Positions 1,088 to 9,771 of a DNA stretch of 45,928 nt are shown piece by piece. Below the pieces are notes generated by a model, which worked only from the letters and a program-made list of their open reading frames with translations, searched no databases and was not told the DNA's origin. The DNA is taken from assembly GCA_944371305.1 (NCBI GenBank), contig CALVXM010000007.1:1-45928 (forward strand). The letters are read 5' to 3'. Position numbers and translations under genes: made by a program. Each line of letters opens with the position of its first letter. Position 1 is the first letter of the stretch. The DNA is from an uncultured Bacilli bacterium. Its GTDB lineage: Bacteria; Bacillota_I; Bacilli_A; RF39; UBA660.

Positions 1088-3094
1088 ATGAAAAAGTTAG
1101 TTAATATTTTATTGCTTTCAACAATTTTTTTTATGAACTTAGTTCCTCCTGTTTTAGCGGAAGAAGTAAGATATGGTTATGTTAACTCAACTGAAGGTAA
1201 TGGTATCTCAGTAAGAAAAGGTCCAGGTACTAGTTATGATAGGTTAAGTGATGGTTTAGCCGAAGGTGAATTAGTTAAAATCTTAAGTGAACATAAACCT
1301 AATGATGGTACCAATAGTAGTTGTAGTTTATGGTATAAAATTGAATTTTTGGAAGTTGATGATGGTTTAGGATATGCTTGTGCAGATTTAGTAAAATTAA
1401 TTGAAATTCAAACCGATGAGAGTTTTGAAGAAAGTTTAGAGTCTTTTCCTGAAAGCTATCATGATTCTTTAAGATTGTTACATACAATCTATCCTAATGC
1501 TATTTTTAAAGCTTATGATACAAGATTAGATTTTAATACGGTTGTTGAAAATGAAACTGTTTTAGGAAAAAGTTTGATATGGGATTCTAATAATTCTCGA
1601 GATGGTTTAAAACATATGGATAGTTATAATTATAAAACTAATAAATTTGCTAACGATTATTCTGGCGGTGGTAAAAATTGGTATGCTGCTAGCGATGAGA
1701 CAATTGCTTATTATGTTGATCCAAGAAACTTTTTAAATGAATCACGAGTTTTTATGTTTGAAAGTTTATCTTATAGTGCAATTACCCATAGTGAAAGTGG
1801 AGTTGAGGCAATTTTAGCTGGTAGTTTTATGGCTAAAGAGAAGGTTGATGGTGGTAAAAAAAGCTTTGCGCAGGTTATTATGGAAGCAGGTAAAAAATAT
1901 AACGTCAATCCTTACTATTTAGCTAGTCGTATTTTGCAGGAAACCGGATCGACAAGGAGTGATTTGGTTAAAGGTGATTATTCAGGCGAATATGATAAAT
2001 ATGATGGATATTATAACTTCTTTAATTATGGCGCTAGCGGTGATGATGTCGTTGGTAATGGCCTAGCTTATGCTTATAAAAAAGGCTGGAATTCCGAAAA
2101 AAAAGCTATTATGGGTGGAGCTAGCTTAATCGTTGCTGACTATATTAGTATCGGGCAAAATACTGGATATTTTCAAAAATGGGATGTTACATGTCGCAAA
2201 GATAATGTTAATGATTGTAGCTTTTATGTTCATCAGTATATGCAAAATATCGAAGCACCTTATAGTGAAGCTAACTCTACTTATAAAGCTTATAAAGAAA
2301 TTTTTGGTAAAGATTTTTATGATTTAGCTTTTGTTTTTACAATTCCTGTTTATAAAAATATGCCTGATAAAAATAGTTTACCTAGTGAAGATAATCCGAT
2401 TAATTATTTAAAAACACTGACTGTTGATGGTAAAAGTGTCACTAATTTCAATAGTTTAAAAACTAGTTATTCAATTAATATTCCAGAAACGACTAAATCG
2501 GTAAAAGTTGCAGCTACTAAAATCGAAAATCGTTCTTCAATTAAAGGAACTGGAACTATTTCAATTACTAAAGATGGTCAGGTTATTCCAATTACGGTAA
2601 CGGCCGAAAATGGTGATAAGTTAGTTTATAATATAACTGTTAATTTAAAAGAAGTGAATACTGAAGAAATGACTTTAGCTGAAACTATTGCTGGTATTAA
2701 ATCAGGTACTTTTAAAGATGGTTATATAACAGGTTTAACCAATGCAAATAGTATTTTGAAAGCAGTTACTGATGTAAATCCAGAAGCAGAAGTTGTCGTT
2801 AAGGATTTAAATAATAAGACTGTTAGTAGTTCAGTTGGAACTGGTTATAAAGTGACGATTACTGTTTTAGATGAAAATAAAACTTACGAAGTTGTAATAA
2901 TTGGTGATACTAATGGCGATAGTGAAATTGATATTTTGGATTTATTACGTGTTCAAAAACATATATTAAAAAGTTCAACTTTATCTGGTGCTAATGGCAA
3001 AGCTGCCGATGTTAGTAAAGATGGTAAAATCGATATTTTGGATTTATTAAAAGTTCAAAAGCATATATTAGGAAGTAGTACAATTAAACAATAG
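1088..3094 (+). CDS. Secreted N-acetylglucosaminidase-type wall hydrolase with SH3, cadherin-like and dockerin domains
   Basis: The 668-residue product has a signal peptide (residues 1-24, ending VLA-EE). A bacterial SH3 domain follows at about 28-105. A glucosaminidase/LytG-like peptidoglycan hydrolase region spans about 190-410 (motifs DPRNFLNE, NPYYLASRILQETG, NFFNYGA). A cadherin-like beta-sandwich lies at about 440-530, and a type I dockerin at 606-668. The dockerin has two near-identical calcium-loop/helix repeats (DTNGDSEIDILDLL and DVSKDGKIDILDLL). I chose the ATG at 1088 rather than an in-frame ATG at 1052 because it follows AAAGGTGAGG and begins the signal peptide. The next gene, 8 bp away, encodes a membrane-anchored cohesin. 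The inferred job is cleaving peptidoglycan glycan strands while held at the cell surface through cohesin-dockerin binding. Domain calls are from motif recognition only. Confidence 0.85.
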   Translation: MKKLVNILLLSTIFFMNLVPPVLAEEVRYGYVNSTEGNGISVRKGPGTSYDRLSDGLAEGELVKILSEHKPNDGTNSSCSLWYKIEFLEVDDGLGYACADLVKLIEIQTDESFEESLESFPESYHDSLRLLHTIYPNAIFKAYDTRLDFNTVVENETVLGKSLIWDSNNSRDGLKHMDSYNYKTNKFANDYSGGGKNWYAASDETIAYYVDPRNFLNESRVFMFESLSYSAITHSESGVEAILAGSFMAKEKVDGGKKSFAQVIMEAGKKYNVNPYYLASRILQETGSTRSDLVKGDYSGEYDKYDGYYNFFNYGASGDDVVGNGLAYAYKKGWNSEKKAIMGGASLIVADYISIGQNTGYFQKWDVTCRKDNVNDCSFYVHQYMQNIEAPYSEANSTYKAYKEIFGKDFYDLAFVFTIPVYKNMPDKNSLPSEDNPINYLKTLTVDGKSVTNFNSLKTSYSINIPETTKSVKVAATKIENRSSIKGTGTISITKDGQVIPITVTAENGDKLVYNITVNLKEVNTEEMTLAETIAGIKSGTFKDGYITGLTNANSILKAVTDVNPEAEVVVKDLNNKTVSSSVGTGYKVTITVLDENKTYEVVIIGDTNGDSEIDILDLLRVQKHILKSSTLSGANGKAADVSKDGKIDILDLLKVQKHILGSSTIKQ

Positions 3095-3102
3095 GAGGTA
3101 GT

Positions 3103-4563
3103 ATGAAAAAAGTATGGTTATTATTATTTAGTTTATTTTTCAGTTTTATTTTGATAGATAATGTCGAAGCAGCAAGTGCTAGTATTAATGCTTCATCTTC
3201 TAAATCAACTGTTATTGTTGGTGATACAGTAACAGTTACAGTCAAAATATCTTCATCATCAAATTTAGGTGCGTGGAACTTTGATGTTGATTATTCATCA
3301 AATTTAACTTTTGTTAGTTCTAGTTTTGGTGGATTATATATTGCTGATGCTGCTCAAACTGCTACTACCAAAAGTAAGAGTTATACTTTCACTTTTAGAG
3401 CTAAATCAAGTGGAACTGGTAAGGTTAGTATCAGTAATGCTAGAGTTATAGATTTTGATACAGAAAAAAACATGTCAGTATCAAAAGGAAGTACTAGTTT
3501 TAGAATCATGACACAAAGTGAACTAGAATCAACGTATAGCAAAAATAATAACTTATCAAGTCTAGAAGTTGAAGGTCATAATTTATCTCCTATATTTGAT
3601 AAAGATACTTTAGAATATAGTTTAGAGTTAGAATATGGAACTGAAAGTATTAATATTAAAGCTACTAAGGAAGATAGTAGGGCTAGCGTTGACGGAACTG
3701 GAAAGATTAATTTGTCTGAGGGATTGAATGTTTTAAAAATTATTGTTACCGCTGAAAATGGTAGTACTAAAACATATGTCATCAATGCTACTGTTAAAGA
3801 ATTAGATCCAATTAATGTTACAGTTGATAGTGAAGAATATTCAGTGGTAAGAGAGAAAGAGTTTCTTCCTAATGTAGGTAGTACTTATCAAGATACTGTT
3901 ATTAAAATAGATGATAAAGATGTTCCTGCTTATTATAATTCTATTACTGATTTTACCTTAGTAGGTTTAAAAAACAAAGCCGGTGATATTAATTTATATC
4001 TTTATAAAGACGGAACTTATAAATTATATGAGGAATATAATTTTAATCAATTAGCTATTTATCTATTAGAGATGGACGAATCACTATTACCTAGTGGTTA
4101 TTCTAAAAATAATATTAAAATAGGTGATAAAGAAGTTGTAGCATATACCAAAGAAGGTTTAGAATATCCGATTGTTTATGGTTTAAATATTGCAACTGGT
4201 GAGAAGAATTTATATAAATATGATGCTAAAGAAAATACTATTCAAAGAGTTGAAAGTACTAGTTCTAATAAAGAAGAATTATATTTTAATATTATATTAG
4301 GTTCATTAGGATTTACTGCTGTATCTTATTTATTCTTTATTACATTGTTAACTAAGAAAAATAAGCAACAAAAAAATTTTTTAGAAAAGACAATGCGCAT
4401 GAATATTTCAGATATTAAAACGGATAAAGATTTAAGTGATACTTTATATAAAAATAATGAAAAATTAAGTAAAAAAGAGCAAAAGAAAAGTAAAAAAGAA
4501 AATAAGAAAAAATTAAAAAAAGAAGCCAAGAAGACTGATGATGATGAAATGGCTAGTTTATAA
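3103..4563 (+). CDS. Membrane-anchored single-cohesin protein with cadherin-like domain
   Basis: The 486-residue product has a signal peptide (1-23, NVEA-ASA). A cohesin-like beta-sandwich lies at about 25-145, with the typical LGAWNFDVDYSSNLTFVSS strand near its start. A cadherin-like beta-sandwich follows at about 150-230, then an unassigned extracellular stretch. One transmembrane helix lies at about 395-416, followed by a cytoplasmic tail very rich in lysine. It starts 8 bp after the dockerin hydrolase behind a strong AGGAGG and shares its transcript. The inferred role is the receptor that pins the upstream dockerin protein to the outer membrane face. Only one cohesin is present, so this is a tether and not a multi-subunit scaffold. 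The cohesin call rests on fold-like sequence features and is less certain than the dockerin call. Confidence 0.72.
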   Translation: MKKVWLLLFSLFFSFILIDNVEAASASINASSSKSTVIVGDTVTVTVKISSSSNLGAWNFDVDYSSNLTFVSSSFGGLYIADAAQTATTKSKSYTFTFRAKSSGTGKVSISNARVIDFDTEKNMSVSKGSTSFRIMTQSELESTYSKNNNLSSLEVEGHNLSPIFDKDTLEYSLELEYGTESINIKATKEDSRASVDGTGKINLSEGLNVLKIIVTAENGSTKTYVINATVKELDPINVTVDSEEYSVVREKEFLPNVGSTYQDTVIKIDDKDVPAYYNSITDFTLVGLKNKAGDINLYLYKDGTYKLYEEYNFNQLAIYLLEMDESLLPSGYSKNNIKIGDKEVVAYTKEGLEYPIVYGLNIATGEKNLYKYDAKENTIQRVESTSSNKEELYFNIILGSLGFTAVSYLFFITLLTKKNKQQKNFLEKTMRMNISDIKTDKDLSDTLYKNNEKLSKKEQKKSKKENKKKLKKEAKKTDDDEMASL

Positions 4564-4564
4564 G

Positions 4565-4589
4565 AACTATCGTAAAACGATAGTTTTTT
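4565..4589 (+). terminator. Intrinsic terminator of the dockerin-cohesin operon
   Basis: A perfect 8-bp stem AACTATCG / CGATAGTT with a 5-nt loop is followed by TTTTTT. It begins 2 nt after the stop codon. Confidence 0.85.
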
Positions 4590-7085: not shown

Positions 7086-8351
7086 TTATGATGTTGTTAG
7101 CAAAGGAGCTAATTCTTTTGAATTATAGCTACATAAATTAGTTGCAAATTCTTTTACTTCTAATTCATGATCTTTGCATAATTTAGTGAAATTCAAATTT
7201 GAATAAGAAATAGGTACATTATCAATACAAATAACCTTGTACCTTTTTTCTTTATATTCAACAATAATACCAATTTTATGACTTATATAAATATTAACTT
7301 TAACATTAGGTAAAATATTGTTGTTAACTATTTGAAATTTTTTGTTGTTTATAGTAAATGTTCCAGCACTATCTATAACTCTGGTTAATTTATTTGATAA
7401 TAAAATATCTAAATCTATATACGATGGAATGGGAATAAATTTACTATTTTTATTTTCAGGTTCAACAGCAAATTTTTTGTTATATTTTTCTATATATTTA
7501 GGTAAAAATTTATTAGCTTCTTCAATGGTTGTAATATGATTTATTTTAAATTCAGTAACTAATCTGTCTTGTAAAGTTTCCCAAAGCCTTTCGATTCTGC
7601 CTTTAGCTTGTGAAGTAGAAACGGCAATTAATTCGATTCCTAGAAAATCCATAATTCTATGAAATTGAGTAGTAGGTTTAAGTTTTCCTTTTAATTCTTC
7701 TTCAATAGTTACTTTTTGATAAGAAGTGGGAAAAAACACAGAATATTTATCAGAATATATAGCAATAGGCGAACCATATTTTTTTAACATTTGCCTTGTA
7801 ATTTCTAAATACCCCATAAGGCATTCATTTTCACACATATAAAGTCCAAGTATTTTTCCAGTTGCATCATCAATATAACCATGAAGAGAATATTTTTTAC
7901 CAATATTGAACCAATCAAATGGCGTTCCATCAGTTTGAACTAATAAACCTTCTGCTTCTTTTCTTTTTCTTCTTCTATGTGTTTTTTTACATTTATGAGC
8001 TTTTTTAGATGTAATATGATTGTTATTTAAAATATTATATAAAGCAGAGTAAGAAATTTTAATATTTTCTCTTTCTTCTAATAAATCCCTAAAATGACTA
8101 AAATTAGTATTTGAATAGTCATCAGATAATTTTAATTGAATAATTTTTTCTTTTAACTCATTAGATAGAGTATGTACTGGTTTATAATTTTTATTTTTAT
8201 GTTTTATTCCTTCTGGGCCTTCGTCTTTAAATCTTTTAACAATTTTTCTAATTTGTCTATCTGATAGTTTTAATATCTTAACTGCTTCTTTTTGAGTTCT
8301 TATTCCATCAACTACAGATTGAATAACAGTAATTCTTTTTAATTCGTTCAT
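7086..8351 (-). CDS. ISNCY/IS1202-group DDE transposase
   Basis: The 421-residue transposase has an N-terminal helix-turn-helix (about 10-55, QKEAVKILKLSDRQIRKIVKRF). A linker basic region (KKTHRRRKRKE) follows, then an rve-type DDE catalytic domain. Visible acidic residues are D in VQTDGTPFDWF, D in IYSDKYSVFF and E in AKGRIERLWETLQDRL. I place the start at the ATG on 8351. It follows AAAGGA at a 9-nt spacing, whereas the upstream in-frame ATG abuts its ribosome site. The reading frame is intact, so the element may still be active. Confidence 0.9.
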   Translation of the reverse strand: MNELKRITVIQSVVDGIRTQKEAVKILKLSDRQIRKIVKRFKDEGPEGIKHKNKNYKPVHTLSNELKEKIIQLKLSDDYSNTNFSHFRDLLEERENIKISYSALYNILNNNHITSKKAHKCKKTHRRRKRKEAEGLLVQTDGTPFDWFNIGKKYSLHGYIDDATGKILGLYMCENECLMGYLEITRQMLKKYGSPIAIYSDKYSVFFPTSYQKVTIEEELKGKLKPTTQFHRIMDFLGIELIAVSTSQAKGRIERLWETLQDRLVTEFKINHITTIEEANKFLPKYIEKYNKKFAVEPENKNSKFIPIPSYIDLDILLSNKLTRVIDSAGTFTINNKKFQIVNNNILPNVKVNIYISHKIGIIVEYKEKRYKVICIDNVPISYSNLNFTKLCKDHELEVKEFATNLCSYNSKELAPLLTTS

Positions 8352-8436
8352 TGTAAACATTCCTTTCAAAATAATCATTCCTTTCATCTACATTTTGTTG
8401 TAGAATTTTAGGAATTATTCATAAATAAACTTATAA

Positions 8437-8530: not shown

Positions 8531-8542
8531 ATGACTAAATGA
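8531..8542 (+). other. Three-codon reading frame (Met-Thr-Lys-stop) overlapping the next start
   Basis: ATG ACT AAA TGA sits 4 nt after GGGAGG, and its stop overlaps the next gene's ATG as ATGA. It could couple translation by termination and re-initiation, or be a chance ATG under the real ribosome site. Confidence 0.35.
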
Positions 8543-9771
8543 TAATAAAAAAAATAAATAAAGCGATGATGAGTGGTGATTTTTTGTTACGTGGTATAAA
8601 GAAAGTTGATCGTAGTTTACAGTCTTTGGCAATTAAAAGATTTGAAAAGAAAATCCCAGTTGATAATAATAAAATAATGTTTGTTACATTTCAGGGAAAA
8701 TATACTTGTAATCCAAAGGCAATAGCAGAAGAAATTTTACGTCAAAAATTACCATATAAACTAGTATGGGTGGCTTTTGGAGAAAACATAACTGATTTAG
8801 AAACATTTAGAGATTATCCTAAGGAGCTAAAGATTGTTAAAAGAGGATCTTATGAATTTTATGAACAGGCAGCTTCAGCCAAAATTATAATAGACAATGC
8901 TTTAAATATGGAATATTTAAACTTTAACAAGAAAAAAAAACAAATAGTTATTCAAACATGGCATGGATCACTTGGACTTAAAAAAATTAATGATGTTAGC
9001 AATCAAAAATGGATAAAGAAGGCATTTAATTATGCATCTAAAACAGATTATTGTATATCAAATAGTAAATTTGAAACGAATGAAGTTTATCGTGATTCAT
9101 ATTGGAAAGATAATAAAATATTAGAGTATGGTCATCCAAGAAATGATATATTATTTTTACCAAAAACTAATAAGGAAATAAAAAAAATAGATTCAAAGGT
9201 AAGGGAGTTTTTTAATCTTGACAAAAAAACAAAAATATTTTTATATGCGCCAACATTTAGAGAAACAGATGATGCAGAAGCGTATAATATTAACTTTGAA
9301 GAAGTTTTAAAAGCTTTAAATAAGAAGTTTAATGATACTTGGGTTGTATTGGTAAAATTGCATTTTAAGGATAGAAAAGGTTTGAAATTGATAACTGATA
9401 GTAAGAATATTATTAATGCGACAAATTATTCTGATATACAAGATCTTATTGCCGTAAGTGATATTGCTTTAACAGACTATTCAAGTTGGATTTGTGATTG
9501 GGTTTTGACAAAAAAACCAGGATTCTTATTTGCTTCAGATTTAAAAAAATATATTTCTGAAAGAGGTTTTTACTATCCACTTGAAGAAACTCCTTTTCCA
9601 ATTGCTGAAACAAATGATCAACTTATTGACAATATTTTAAATTTCGATATAGATAAATATGAAGAAAAACGTCAAGAGTTTTTAGAAAAAAGAGGTTGTT
9701 GCGAAAATGGTACTGCTTCAAAACAGGTAGTTGAATTAATAAAAGGAATAATTGATAAAGAAAGTAGGTAA
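8539..9771 (+). CDS. CDP-glycerol glycerophosphotransferase family protein (TagF/TarF-like)
   Basis: This is a 410-residue GT-B transferase of the teichoic acid polymerase/primase family. It takes glycerol-phosphate, ribitol-phosphate or a related unit from a CDP donor and adds it to a lipid-linked polymer at the inner membrane face. Family motifs are QTWHGSLGLKK, GHPRND, YAPTFRET, LVKLHF, and the C-terminal ALTDYSSWICDWVLTKKPGFLF / RGFYYPLEETPFP block. It is the first gene of the run to 14983. The GGGAGG ribosome site is 12 nt from this ATG but 4 nt from an upstream three-codon frame, so the exact start is slightly uncertain. The linked cytidylyltransferase suggests the donor is made locally. 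Confidence 0.88.
   Translation: MIIKKINKAMMSGDFLLRGIKKVDRSLQSLAIKRFEKKIPVDNNKIMFVTFQGKYTCNPKAIAEEILRQKLPYKLVWVAFGENITDLETFRDYPKELKIVKRGSYEFYEQAASAKIIIDNALNMEYLNFNKKKKQIVIQTWHGSLGLKKINDVSNQKWIKKAFNYASKTDYCISNSKFETNEVYRDSYWKDNKILEYGHPRNDILFLPKTNKEIKKIDSKVREFFNLDKKTKIFLYAPTFRETDDAEAYNINFEEVLKALNKKFNDTWVVLVKLHFKDRKGLKLITDSKNIINATNYSDIQDLIAVSDIALTDYSSWICDWVLTKKPGFLFASDLKKYISERGFYYPLEETPFPIAETNDQLIDNILNFDIDKYEEKRQEFLEKRGCCENGTASKQVVELIKGIIDKESR

Follow-up and report, generated by a model that had tools for sequence, protein, structure and literature searches.

A likely membrane-tethered peptidoglycan hydrolase split between a dockerin-bearing enzyme and a one-cohesin anchor in an uncultured Bacilli bacterium

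Introduction

What does a dockerin-cohesin pair do when its enzyme is predicted to act on peptidoglycan? To our knowledge, cohesin-dockerin docking has been studied and engineered almost wholly for the extracellular breakdown of plant, mucin and host glycans. The window, the whole stretch of 45,928 nucleotides analyzed here, comes from an uncultured Bacilli bacterium of the gut (small genome of 1.14 Mb, about 92% complete) and contains two adjacent genes, one for a dockerin-bearing wall hydrolase and one for a protein with a cohesin and a membrane helix.

Organization of the locus

1088..3094, + strand: gene 1, predicted secreted GH73 glucosaminidase with a C-terminal dockerin (668 aa; open reading frame list, Pfam, fold)
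3093..3098, + strand: ribosome-binding site AGGAGG of gene 2, overlapping the gene 1 stop codon (3092-3094)
3103..4563, + strand: gene 2, predicted single-cohesin membrane anchor (486 aa; open reading frame list, six-frame Pfam, profile, fold)
4565..4589, + strand: terminator-like hairpin and U-run after gene 2 (by eye; fold z -4.64)

Genes 1 and 2 are separated by 8 nt; across 96 loci the intergenic gap ranges between -86 and 30 nt. A second in-frame ATG for gene 1 lies upstream, at 1052. The promoter scan gave 16 sites against 23.9 expected, which is no promoter evidence, and the hairpin at 4565..4589 was absent from the output of the consensus scan.

When the genome was searched for dockerins that could compete with that of gene 1, no other was found above the Pfam cut-off, and the cohesin of gene 2 was also the only one above its cut-off, in agreement with the single-cohesin receptor proposed in an earlier note on this DNA. 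A second cohesin-like match (C9, 15.7 bits, below the cut-off) in a 519-aa membrane protein was taken as chance. C9 is flanked by genes read by eye as a lysyl-tRNA synthetase and a phosphatase. The host wall appears to be crosslinked, with six transpeptidase matches in the genome.

The dockerin-bearing hydrolase

1088..1159, + strand: signal peptide, aa 1-24 (sequence; model helix 2-16; A24 nearly invariant)
1199..1405, + strand: bacterial SH3 domain, aa 38-106 (PF08239, 23.6 bits, just below the cut-off of 27)
1625..2362, + strand: GH73 catalytic domain, SagB/AtlE type, aa 180-425 (NF052642, 79.1 bits; PDB 4pi7, 7.9e-17)
2405..2653, + strand: cadherin-like domain, aa 440-522 (PF12733, 21.2 bits, just below the cut-off of 24.2)
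2660..2893, + strand: small beta-rich X module preceding the dockerin, aa 525-602 (kept in relatives; model)
2894..3073, + strand: type I dockerin whose two repeats share the same recognition residues, aa 603-662 (PF00404, fold, repeat symmetry)

A hydrophobic N-terminal segment is present in 159 of 160 partner enzymes. In the AF2 model of the gene 1 product (pLDDT 90.5), residues 26-106 match SH3-like wall-binding domains, and the GH73 domain resembles AtlE, SagB and the C. perfringens autolysin with Z of about 19-22. The predicted catalytic residue E285 (codon 1940-1942) is invariant in 73 sequences and is aligned with E138 of AtlE, the residue replaced by Ala in the AtlE E138A PDB entry. 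By its predicted catalytic Glu and modelled fold, the catalytic domain is a GH73 glucosaminidase of SagB/AtlE type, and it scores far below the cut-off of the curated SagB model NF052642 (79.1 against 425 bits). The secreted wall hydrolase read from the sequence earlier is thus borne out as a predicted activity.

The same reading had placed a type I dockerin at the end of the protein. PF00404 matched residues 606-661 (numbered from the start at 1088) with 8.6e-15 and 55.1 bits, well above its cut-off of 22.9 bits, and the modelled dockerin superposed on 1OHZ_B with 0.8 A over 56 residues.

The single-cohesin membrane anchor

3103..3171, + strand: signal peptide, aa 1-23 (A23 invariant in 92 sequences)
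3172..3513, + strand: cohesin, aa 24-137 (PF00963, 30 bits; 2jh2, Z 13.6; co-variation)
3544..3798, + strand: cadherin-like domain, aa 148-232 (PF12733, 43.7 bits against a cut-off of 24.2)
3805..4257, + strand: unnamed membrane-proximal domain with internal duplication, aa 235-385 (halves align; recurs in family)
4285..4341, + strand: transmembrane helix, aa 395-413 by hydropathy (model helix 389-417)
4354..4560, + strand: lysine-rich, predicted cytoplasmic tail, aa 418-486 (sequence; low-confidence model)

All 186 anchors have a hydrophobic N-terminus. The N-terminal domain had been proposed to be a cohesin, and hmmscan of the whole gene 2 protein against Pfam did not report one; a Pfam scan reported it in 19 of 92 anchor homologues (E 0.01). 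However, the reading of gene 2 as a protein without a cohesin is overruled by three results. In the six-frame Pfam search of the genome, PF00963 scored 30 bits, above the cut-off of 24.1. The profile of 92 anchor homologues found PDB cohesins, first 3l8q (1.5e-4) and then 1qzn, 3f2l, 1g1k and others. In the AF2 model (pLDDT 89.9), the domain was closest to C. perfringens cohesins, namely 2jh2 (Z 13.6, 113 aligned residues, 2.3 A) and 2vo8 (Z 13.2); cohesins were the majority among the best 50 fold matches, and some other sandwiches were similar (9ifr, Z 12.9). We conclude from model and sequence that the predicted domain is a cohesin with the nine-strand sandwich fold. Pfam found no carbohydrate-binding module in gene 2.

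The cadherin-like domain is present in all 92 anchor homologues. Its proposed presence in both proteins is clear in gene 2, while in gene 1 it has the score just below the cut-off noted above together with fold support that spans residues 434-522 (8yk1, Z 11.1); the enzyme's copy also matches the anchor's own copy in sequence searches. The halves of the unnamed domain align with an hhalign probability of 98.5 over 56 columns. This domain has no common Pfam match across the 92 homologues, is hardly reached by the list of fold matches for the whole gene 2 model, and is found in 93 of 145 family genomes. A transmembrane segment follows it in all 173 complete anchors, consistent with the proposed membrane anchor. 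The lysine-rich tail was confirmed in gene 2 but is not general, since the charge is not conserved and the tail is net negative in 25 of the 173.

Co-variation between dockerin and cohesin

We compared 171 pairs, mostly from dockerin- or enzyme-led searches, using distance-stratified contrasts between column pairs. At z>4, 25 of 7440 dockerin-cohesin column pairs co-varied compared with 0/5040, 0/8820, 1/9176 and 3/27156 in the controls, column pairs being only approximately independent. At z>3 the proportion was 2.31% for dockerin-cohesin and 0.28% for GH73-cohesin, an excess of about eightfold. Block enrichment by DCA alone was modest, with 10 among the 50 highest-ranked where 5.9 were expected. 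The co-variation sits at the dockerin recognition positions and on one face of the cohesin, where the residues are G56, W58, V62, Y64, Y94, F96, F98, I110, R114 and I116. The apparent codes differ among pairs, with Q17 accompanying W58 and K17 accompanying G58. In gene 1 the code reads ILLLQK, facing G56 and W58 in its cohesin partner's sequence, and in one relative it reads AVYVKN, paired to L56 and G58.

The two dockerin repeats are identical to each other at positions 10, 11, 17 and 18 in 148, 134, 166 and 156 of 169 sequences, respectively (chance 19-37%), compared with 23 of 170 at position 4, and those of gene 1 are identical at positions 10, 11, 13, 14, 17 and 18. Since the dockerin and cohesin co-vary and both repeats carry the same code, the sequences support direct docking of the gene 1 dockerin on the gene 2 cohesin in two orientations, and the link suggested earlier between the two proteins is strengthened by the paired changes at recognition positions. 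The calcium loop ligands D1 and D12 are kept in 170 and 171 of 171 first repeats and in 153 and 163 of 171 second repeats, and in both loops of gene 1 the ligands at positions 1, 3, 5, 9 and 12 are acidic or polar. This conservation fits a calcium-dependent docking.

Proposed mechanism

We consider it likely that the two genes encode a split, membrane-tethered peptidoglycan hydrolase whose parts are joined by dockerin and cohesin. The gene 1 product would be exported as a soluble GH73 N-acetylglucosaminidase, and the gene 2 product would be exported and retained in the membrane by its single C-terminal helix. The type I dockerin of the enzyme may then bind the single cohesin of the anchor in either orientation, since the two repeats share one recognition code, and calcium would stabilise the dockerin loops. 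A stalk of the cohesin, cadherin-like and unnamed domains would hold the enzyme close to the membrane, where it may trim emerging glycan strands, by analogy with SagB and SpdC in S. aureus. Type I dockerin-cohesin pairs are very tight, and the proposal that the tether is reversible was left without support, as nothing in the analysis speaks for reversibility.

Recurrence of the pair and alternative explanations

Anchor genes were found at 94 loci, spread over 93 of 145 family genomes. A dockerin gene adjoins the anchor directly upstream at 89 of these loci and directly downstream at two; one of the remaining loci is broken by a contig end and two have no adjoining dockerin gene. Among the 145 genomes, 92 have anchor and dockerin, one the anchor only, 17 a dockerin only and 35 neither. 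The two-gene arrangement recurs in many Bacilli and Clostridia, including Roseburia, Blautia and Pseudoflavonifractor records. The neighbour is a SagB-type GH73 with a dockerin in 85 of the 94 loci; inside the family an M6 peptidase (G181 and G032) or other GH73 is also found, and outside it GH25 or other GH73 (six partners scanned). The catalytic domain is therefore exchanged across pairs while the dockerin is constant. Labour is also divided between the two proteins, with an internal transmembrane segment in only one of 181 partner enzymes against 173 of 173 complete anchors.

Domain counts were made with separate clean enzyme and anchor models, since both proteins share a domain. At least 60% of the cadherin-like domain was retained in 68 of 93 complete enzymes compared with 98 of 98 anchors, and the domain also occurs in a CHAP enzyme of the same genome that has its own membrane helix. 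The cadherin-like domain is therefore not the link between the proteins, and it is probably a spacer.

Of 181 distinct pairs, 10 have an upstream enzyme without a detected dockerin. The family genome G105 keeps the anchor and a GH73 and has no dockerin, and in eleven named Clostridia records the anchor adjoins an enzyme without one; counting a frameshifted R. inulinivorans, 12 named genomes have such a pair, eight of them without any dockerin match. These pairs indicate that a genome can retain the anchor where its ligand is missing. Together with the cadherin-like domain of 92/92 anchors, they speak for an explanation in which the two proteins cooperate at the wall and the dockerin-cohesin contact is secondary, the dockerin being an optional strengthener and the cohesin-like, cadherin-like or unnamed domain of the anchor binding the enzyme core or the wall. 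We regard this as unlikely, since dockerin-cohesin co-variation exceeds GH73-cohesin co-variation about eightfold and the dockerin is common to partners from other enzyme families. Moreover, the dockerin-less enzymes nest among those of Clostridia in the GH73 tree, a placement that needs four changes and is read best as losses, the root of this tree being unsure.

The pair had also been called self-contained, which stands for this genome with its one dockerin and one cohesin but not for the family, where 38 of the 93 anchor-bearing genomes have at least two dockerins, up to 12. These counts and the M6 peptidase partners would suit a general one-cohesin receptor that displays several dockerin proteins, such as surface peptidases and giant surface proteins, instead of serving an autolysin. 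Such a role is still less probable, as 54 of the 93 genomes, like this one, have exactly one dockerin, the SagB-type enzyme is the usual neighbour, and the giant proteins bear their own cohesins. That the anchor senses occupancy, reading hydrolase docking and relaying it across the membrane to the cytoplasmic tail, is very improbable: the duplicated membrane-proximal domain, helix and tail are conserved, but the tail differs widely between anchors, both in its charge and in its length, which ranges from 5 to 304 residues.

The tethered hydrolase thus remains our preferred reading. The chances are about even that it extends to a general docking system for wall hydrolases in Bacilli and Clostridia of animal guts, with a constant one-cohesin anchor, exchangeable dockerin enzymes and lineage-specific codes. 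If true, this system would be the in trans equivalent of hydrolases that carry a membrane helix in cis.

Comparison with known systems

Like a cellulosome, the pair has a type I dockerin on the enzyme and a cohesin on a non-catalytic protein. Unlike a cellulosome, the genome holds one cohesin and one dockerin, with neither repeated cohesins on a scaffoldin nor several dockerin enzymes, and anchoring is by a predicted membrane helix. The C. perfringens X82 cohesins each reside on a glycoside hydrolase, with host glycans as substrates (PMC12997984). These pairs are similar in being non-cellulosomal, with one cohesin per protein and pairwise docking, and the C. perfringens cohesins 2jh2, 2w1n and 2vo8 are the closest folds to the gene 2 cohesin among the matches listed; in contrast, the cohesin here is on a membrane anchor that is itself non-enzymatic and is encoded next to a peptidoglycan hydrolase. 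The Limousia mucinolysome also uses cohesin-dockerin docking outside plant fibre in gut bacteria, but with multi-cohesin scaffoldins and mucin-degrading enzymes (PMC12997984). SagB-SpdC of S. aureus, whose role as a peptidoglycan release complex is described in PMC12272431, likewise has a membrane protein acting with a GH73, one that shares the fold of the gene 1 domain (6u0o, Z 19.1); there the partner belongs to the CAAX-protease family and the contact is not dockerin-cohesin.

Cohesin-dockerin docking is known, and so are dockerins on wall hydrolases inside cellulosomes, as reported for the lysozyme and other wall hydrolases of Ruminococcus champanellensis (PMC6403190). In searches of a single open-access library, we found no description of a private one-cohesin membrane anchor for a cell's own hydrolase.

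Implications

The recurrence of the pair in many Bacilli and Clostridia suggests that this connector serves the cell's own wall, not only plant-fibre digestion. If the proposed tether is true, a private pair holding the cell's own hydrolase at the membrane would make the connector part of the growth machinery of the bacterium. It would also provide numerous naturally matched one-to-one pairs whose recognition codes apparently differ, and a testable explanation of the way in which gut bacteria with reduced genomes may hold an autolysin in place.

Domain organization of the gene pair

Genes 1 and 2 lie on the same strand and are separated by 8 nt, and the stop codon of gene 1 is overlapped by the AGGAGG of gene 2. 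Fold computation revealed a hairpin and U-run 3' of gene 2, which is absent from the list of the consensus scan. The features of the region are as follows:

1088-3094, gene 1, secreted GH73 glucosaminidase of the SagB/AtlE type (the enzyme)
3103-4563, gene 2, same strand as gene 1, single-cohesin membrane protein (the anchor)
3805-4257, unnamed domain on the membrane side of the anchor, formed by internal duplication (hhalign probability of 98.5 over 56 columns)
7086-8387, minus strand, transposase-like gene, recognized by eye only
8539-9771, plus strand, glycerophosphotransferase-like gene, recognized by eye only, which would suit teichoic acid synthesis

The enzyme is composed of a signal peptide, an SH3 domain, GH73, a cadherin-like domain, a small X module, and a type I dockerin, while the anchor consists of a signal peptide, the cohesin, a cadherin-like domain, the unnamed domain, a membrane helix, and a Lys-rich tail. 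The AF2 models of both proteins were confident, with mean pLDDT values of 90.5 and 89.9, respectively. The type I dockerin that the earlier note had placed on the enzyme is indeed located at its C-terminal end. For the cohesin proposed in the anchor, hmmscan of the protein listed none; nevertheless, the six-frame Pfam search of the genome scored it at 30 bits (cut-off, 24.1), a 92-member profile of anchor homologues matched solved cohesins, and the nearest folds to the AF2 model were non-cellulosomal C. perfringens cohesins, so that three approaches agree on its presence. The unnamed domain had no Pfam match common to the 92 homologues scanned.

When we searched the organism's own genome (1,138,845 bases, 92.28% complete), we found one cohesin over the cut-off and one dockerin, that of gene 1. 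Six matches to penicillin-binding transpeptidase domains were also found, and the host therefore makes a crosslinked wall.

Conservation of the pair

The unnamed domain, being independent of dockerin and cohesin, was used as the anchor marker. It was present in 93 of the 145 family genomes and, with two loci in one genome, gave 94 loci. A dockerin gene lies directly upstream on the same strand at 89 of these and overlaps downstream at two; one locus is interrupted at a contig end, its dockerin gene lying on the other fragment, and the remaining two (in genomes G105 and G082) have no dockerin neighbour. Dockerins occur in 109 of the 145 genomes: 92 have anchor and dockerin, one the anchor only, 17 the dockerin only, and 35 neither (Fisher p 1.4e-19, relatedness ignored).

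Among 392 genomes drawn from the phylum, 33 contained the marker, 13 of them from the same family. In 18 of the other 20, which were examined, the dockerin gene was upstream in 15, one had no upstream gene on its contig, and two anchors begin at the cadherin-like domain, with neither cohesin nor dockerin neighbour. In these two cohesin-less anchors (L331 and L333), both halves were possibly lost jointly. From 568 loci of named genomes encoding an enzyme relative, 80 were kept, including records of Lachnospiraceae, Oscillospiraceae, Pseudoflavonifractor, and Roseburia inulinivorans; in 60 the anchor follows an enzyme with dockerin, in 12 the anchor is present but no dockerin was detected on the enzyme, six have a dockerin without anchor, and two have neither. 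One Bacilli genome contains two tandem enzyme-anchor pairs (L265, 5614-12780) with slightly different recognition residues. In addition, giant surface proteins with cohesin, in frames of about 2,500-3,100 aa, were observed in relatives (L096, L097, L099-L102, L109, L110, and L202), and several contain cohesin and dockerin in one chain.

Co-variation of dockerin and cohesin

For 171 distinct adjacent pairs, taken from 187 distinct anchors, alignments were built of four domains (dockerin, cohesin, cadherin-like, and unnamed). Of the 50 highest-ranking inter-domain pairs in mean-field DCA, 10 were dockerin-cohesin, a modest excess over the 5.9 expected; the leading ones included, for both dockerin repeats, position 11 paired with cohesin residue 116 and position 17 paired with cohesin residue 58. 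The second test used 82 disjoint nearest-neighbour contrasts, selected by the other domains and distance-stratified. Column pairs with z > 4 numbered 25 of 7440 for dockerin-cohesin, while the controls gave 0 of 5040 (dockerin-cadherin-like), 0 of 8820 (dockerin-unnamed domain), 1 of 9176 (X module-cohesin), and 3 of 27156 (GH73-cohesin). Independence of the contrasts is approximate only, and adjacent columns depend on one another.

On the dockerin side, the co-variation falls in positions 9-22 of the repeats, with little in loop positions 1-8; positions 10, 11, 17, 18, and 22 are presumably the recognition positions. On the cohesin side, it involves residues 56, 58, 62, 64, 94, 96, 98, 110, 114, and 116, which are alternate residues on three strands of the AF2 model that we take to be the known dockerin-binding face, and a few other residues ranked high as well (57, 70, 113, and 143). 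The two repeats of one dockerin agree at positions 10, 11, 13, 14, 17, and 18 in 134-166 of 169 proteins, and these positions vary between species, while the repeats mostly disagree at positions 4 (agreeing in 23 of 170) and 7 (47 of 169). A dockerin under selection to bind a single partner in two orientations would be expected to show such agreement.

Exchange of partner enzymes and probable loss of the dockerin

A SagB-type GH73 with dockerin is the partner at 85 of the 94 family anchor loci. Among other partners, Pfam scans identified PF01832-type GH73 (at five phylum-level loci and also at L315, L175, and L187), GH25 (L326), and an M6 (immune inhibitor A-like) peptidase with dockerin (L321 and L323), and the top solved relative of the L324 partner was pneumococcal LytB. 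The dockerin is the common element of these unlike enzymes. At L321 and L323, the peptidase gene overlaps the anchor gene downstream, replacing the upstream glucosaminidase.

G105 retains the anchor and a GH73 enzyme in a genome without dockerin, and the 12 named genomes with no dockerin detected on the enzyme comprise eight without any dockerin match and four with some elsewhere. One of them, Roseburia inulinivorans DSM 16841 (L261), has a frame broken inside the enzyme's dockerin after the first loop, attributable to a genuine loss or to misassembly. In the GH73 tree (149 rows, midpoint root), the nine dockerin-less rows, including the L261 record, require four changes and lie within the Clostridia part, which under this root reads best as repeated dockerin loss there. 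Since the anchor is kept beside a dockerin-less enzyme in G105 and these named genomes, it must have some use without dockerin in those lineages.

Proposed role of the anchor

A helix follows the unnamed domain in 173 of 173 complete anchors, whereas an internal membrane helix was found in one of 181 partner enzymes, indicating at the sequence level that the enzyme is probably soluble and that the anchor provides membrane attachment. The earlier note had suggested a reversible, calcium-dependent tether and had noted a cadherin-like domain common to both proteins. Calcium dependence would follow from the conserved dockerin loop ligands, while reversibility found no support. The cadherin-like domain is present in both proteins but is better read as a spacer than as a link, because part of the enzymes lack it and a CHAP-domain enzyme of the own genome has it together with its own helix. 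This enzyme (L334, 1363-2364, minus strand, contig C2:79500-83000), whose C-terminal membrane helix was read by eye and whose gene adjoins a small GH73 gene at 684-1268, represents cis anchoring of a wall hydrolase in the organism whose gene 1 product would be anchored in trans.

Docking of this pairwise kind outside cellulosomes is known in C. perfringens (PMC12997984), and dockerin-bearing wall hydrolases are described as cellulosome parts in PMC6403190. The open literature searched yielded no account of a membrane anchor with one cohesin that partners a wall hydrolase of the same cell; this does not imply that such a system is unpublished. The best reading is that the dedicated anchor would keep the soluble glucosaminidase close to the membrane, where it would cut glycan strands, an action comparable to that of the SagB-SpdC release complex as presented in PMC12272431.
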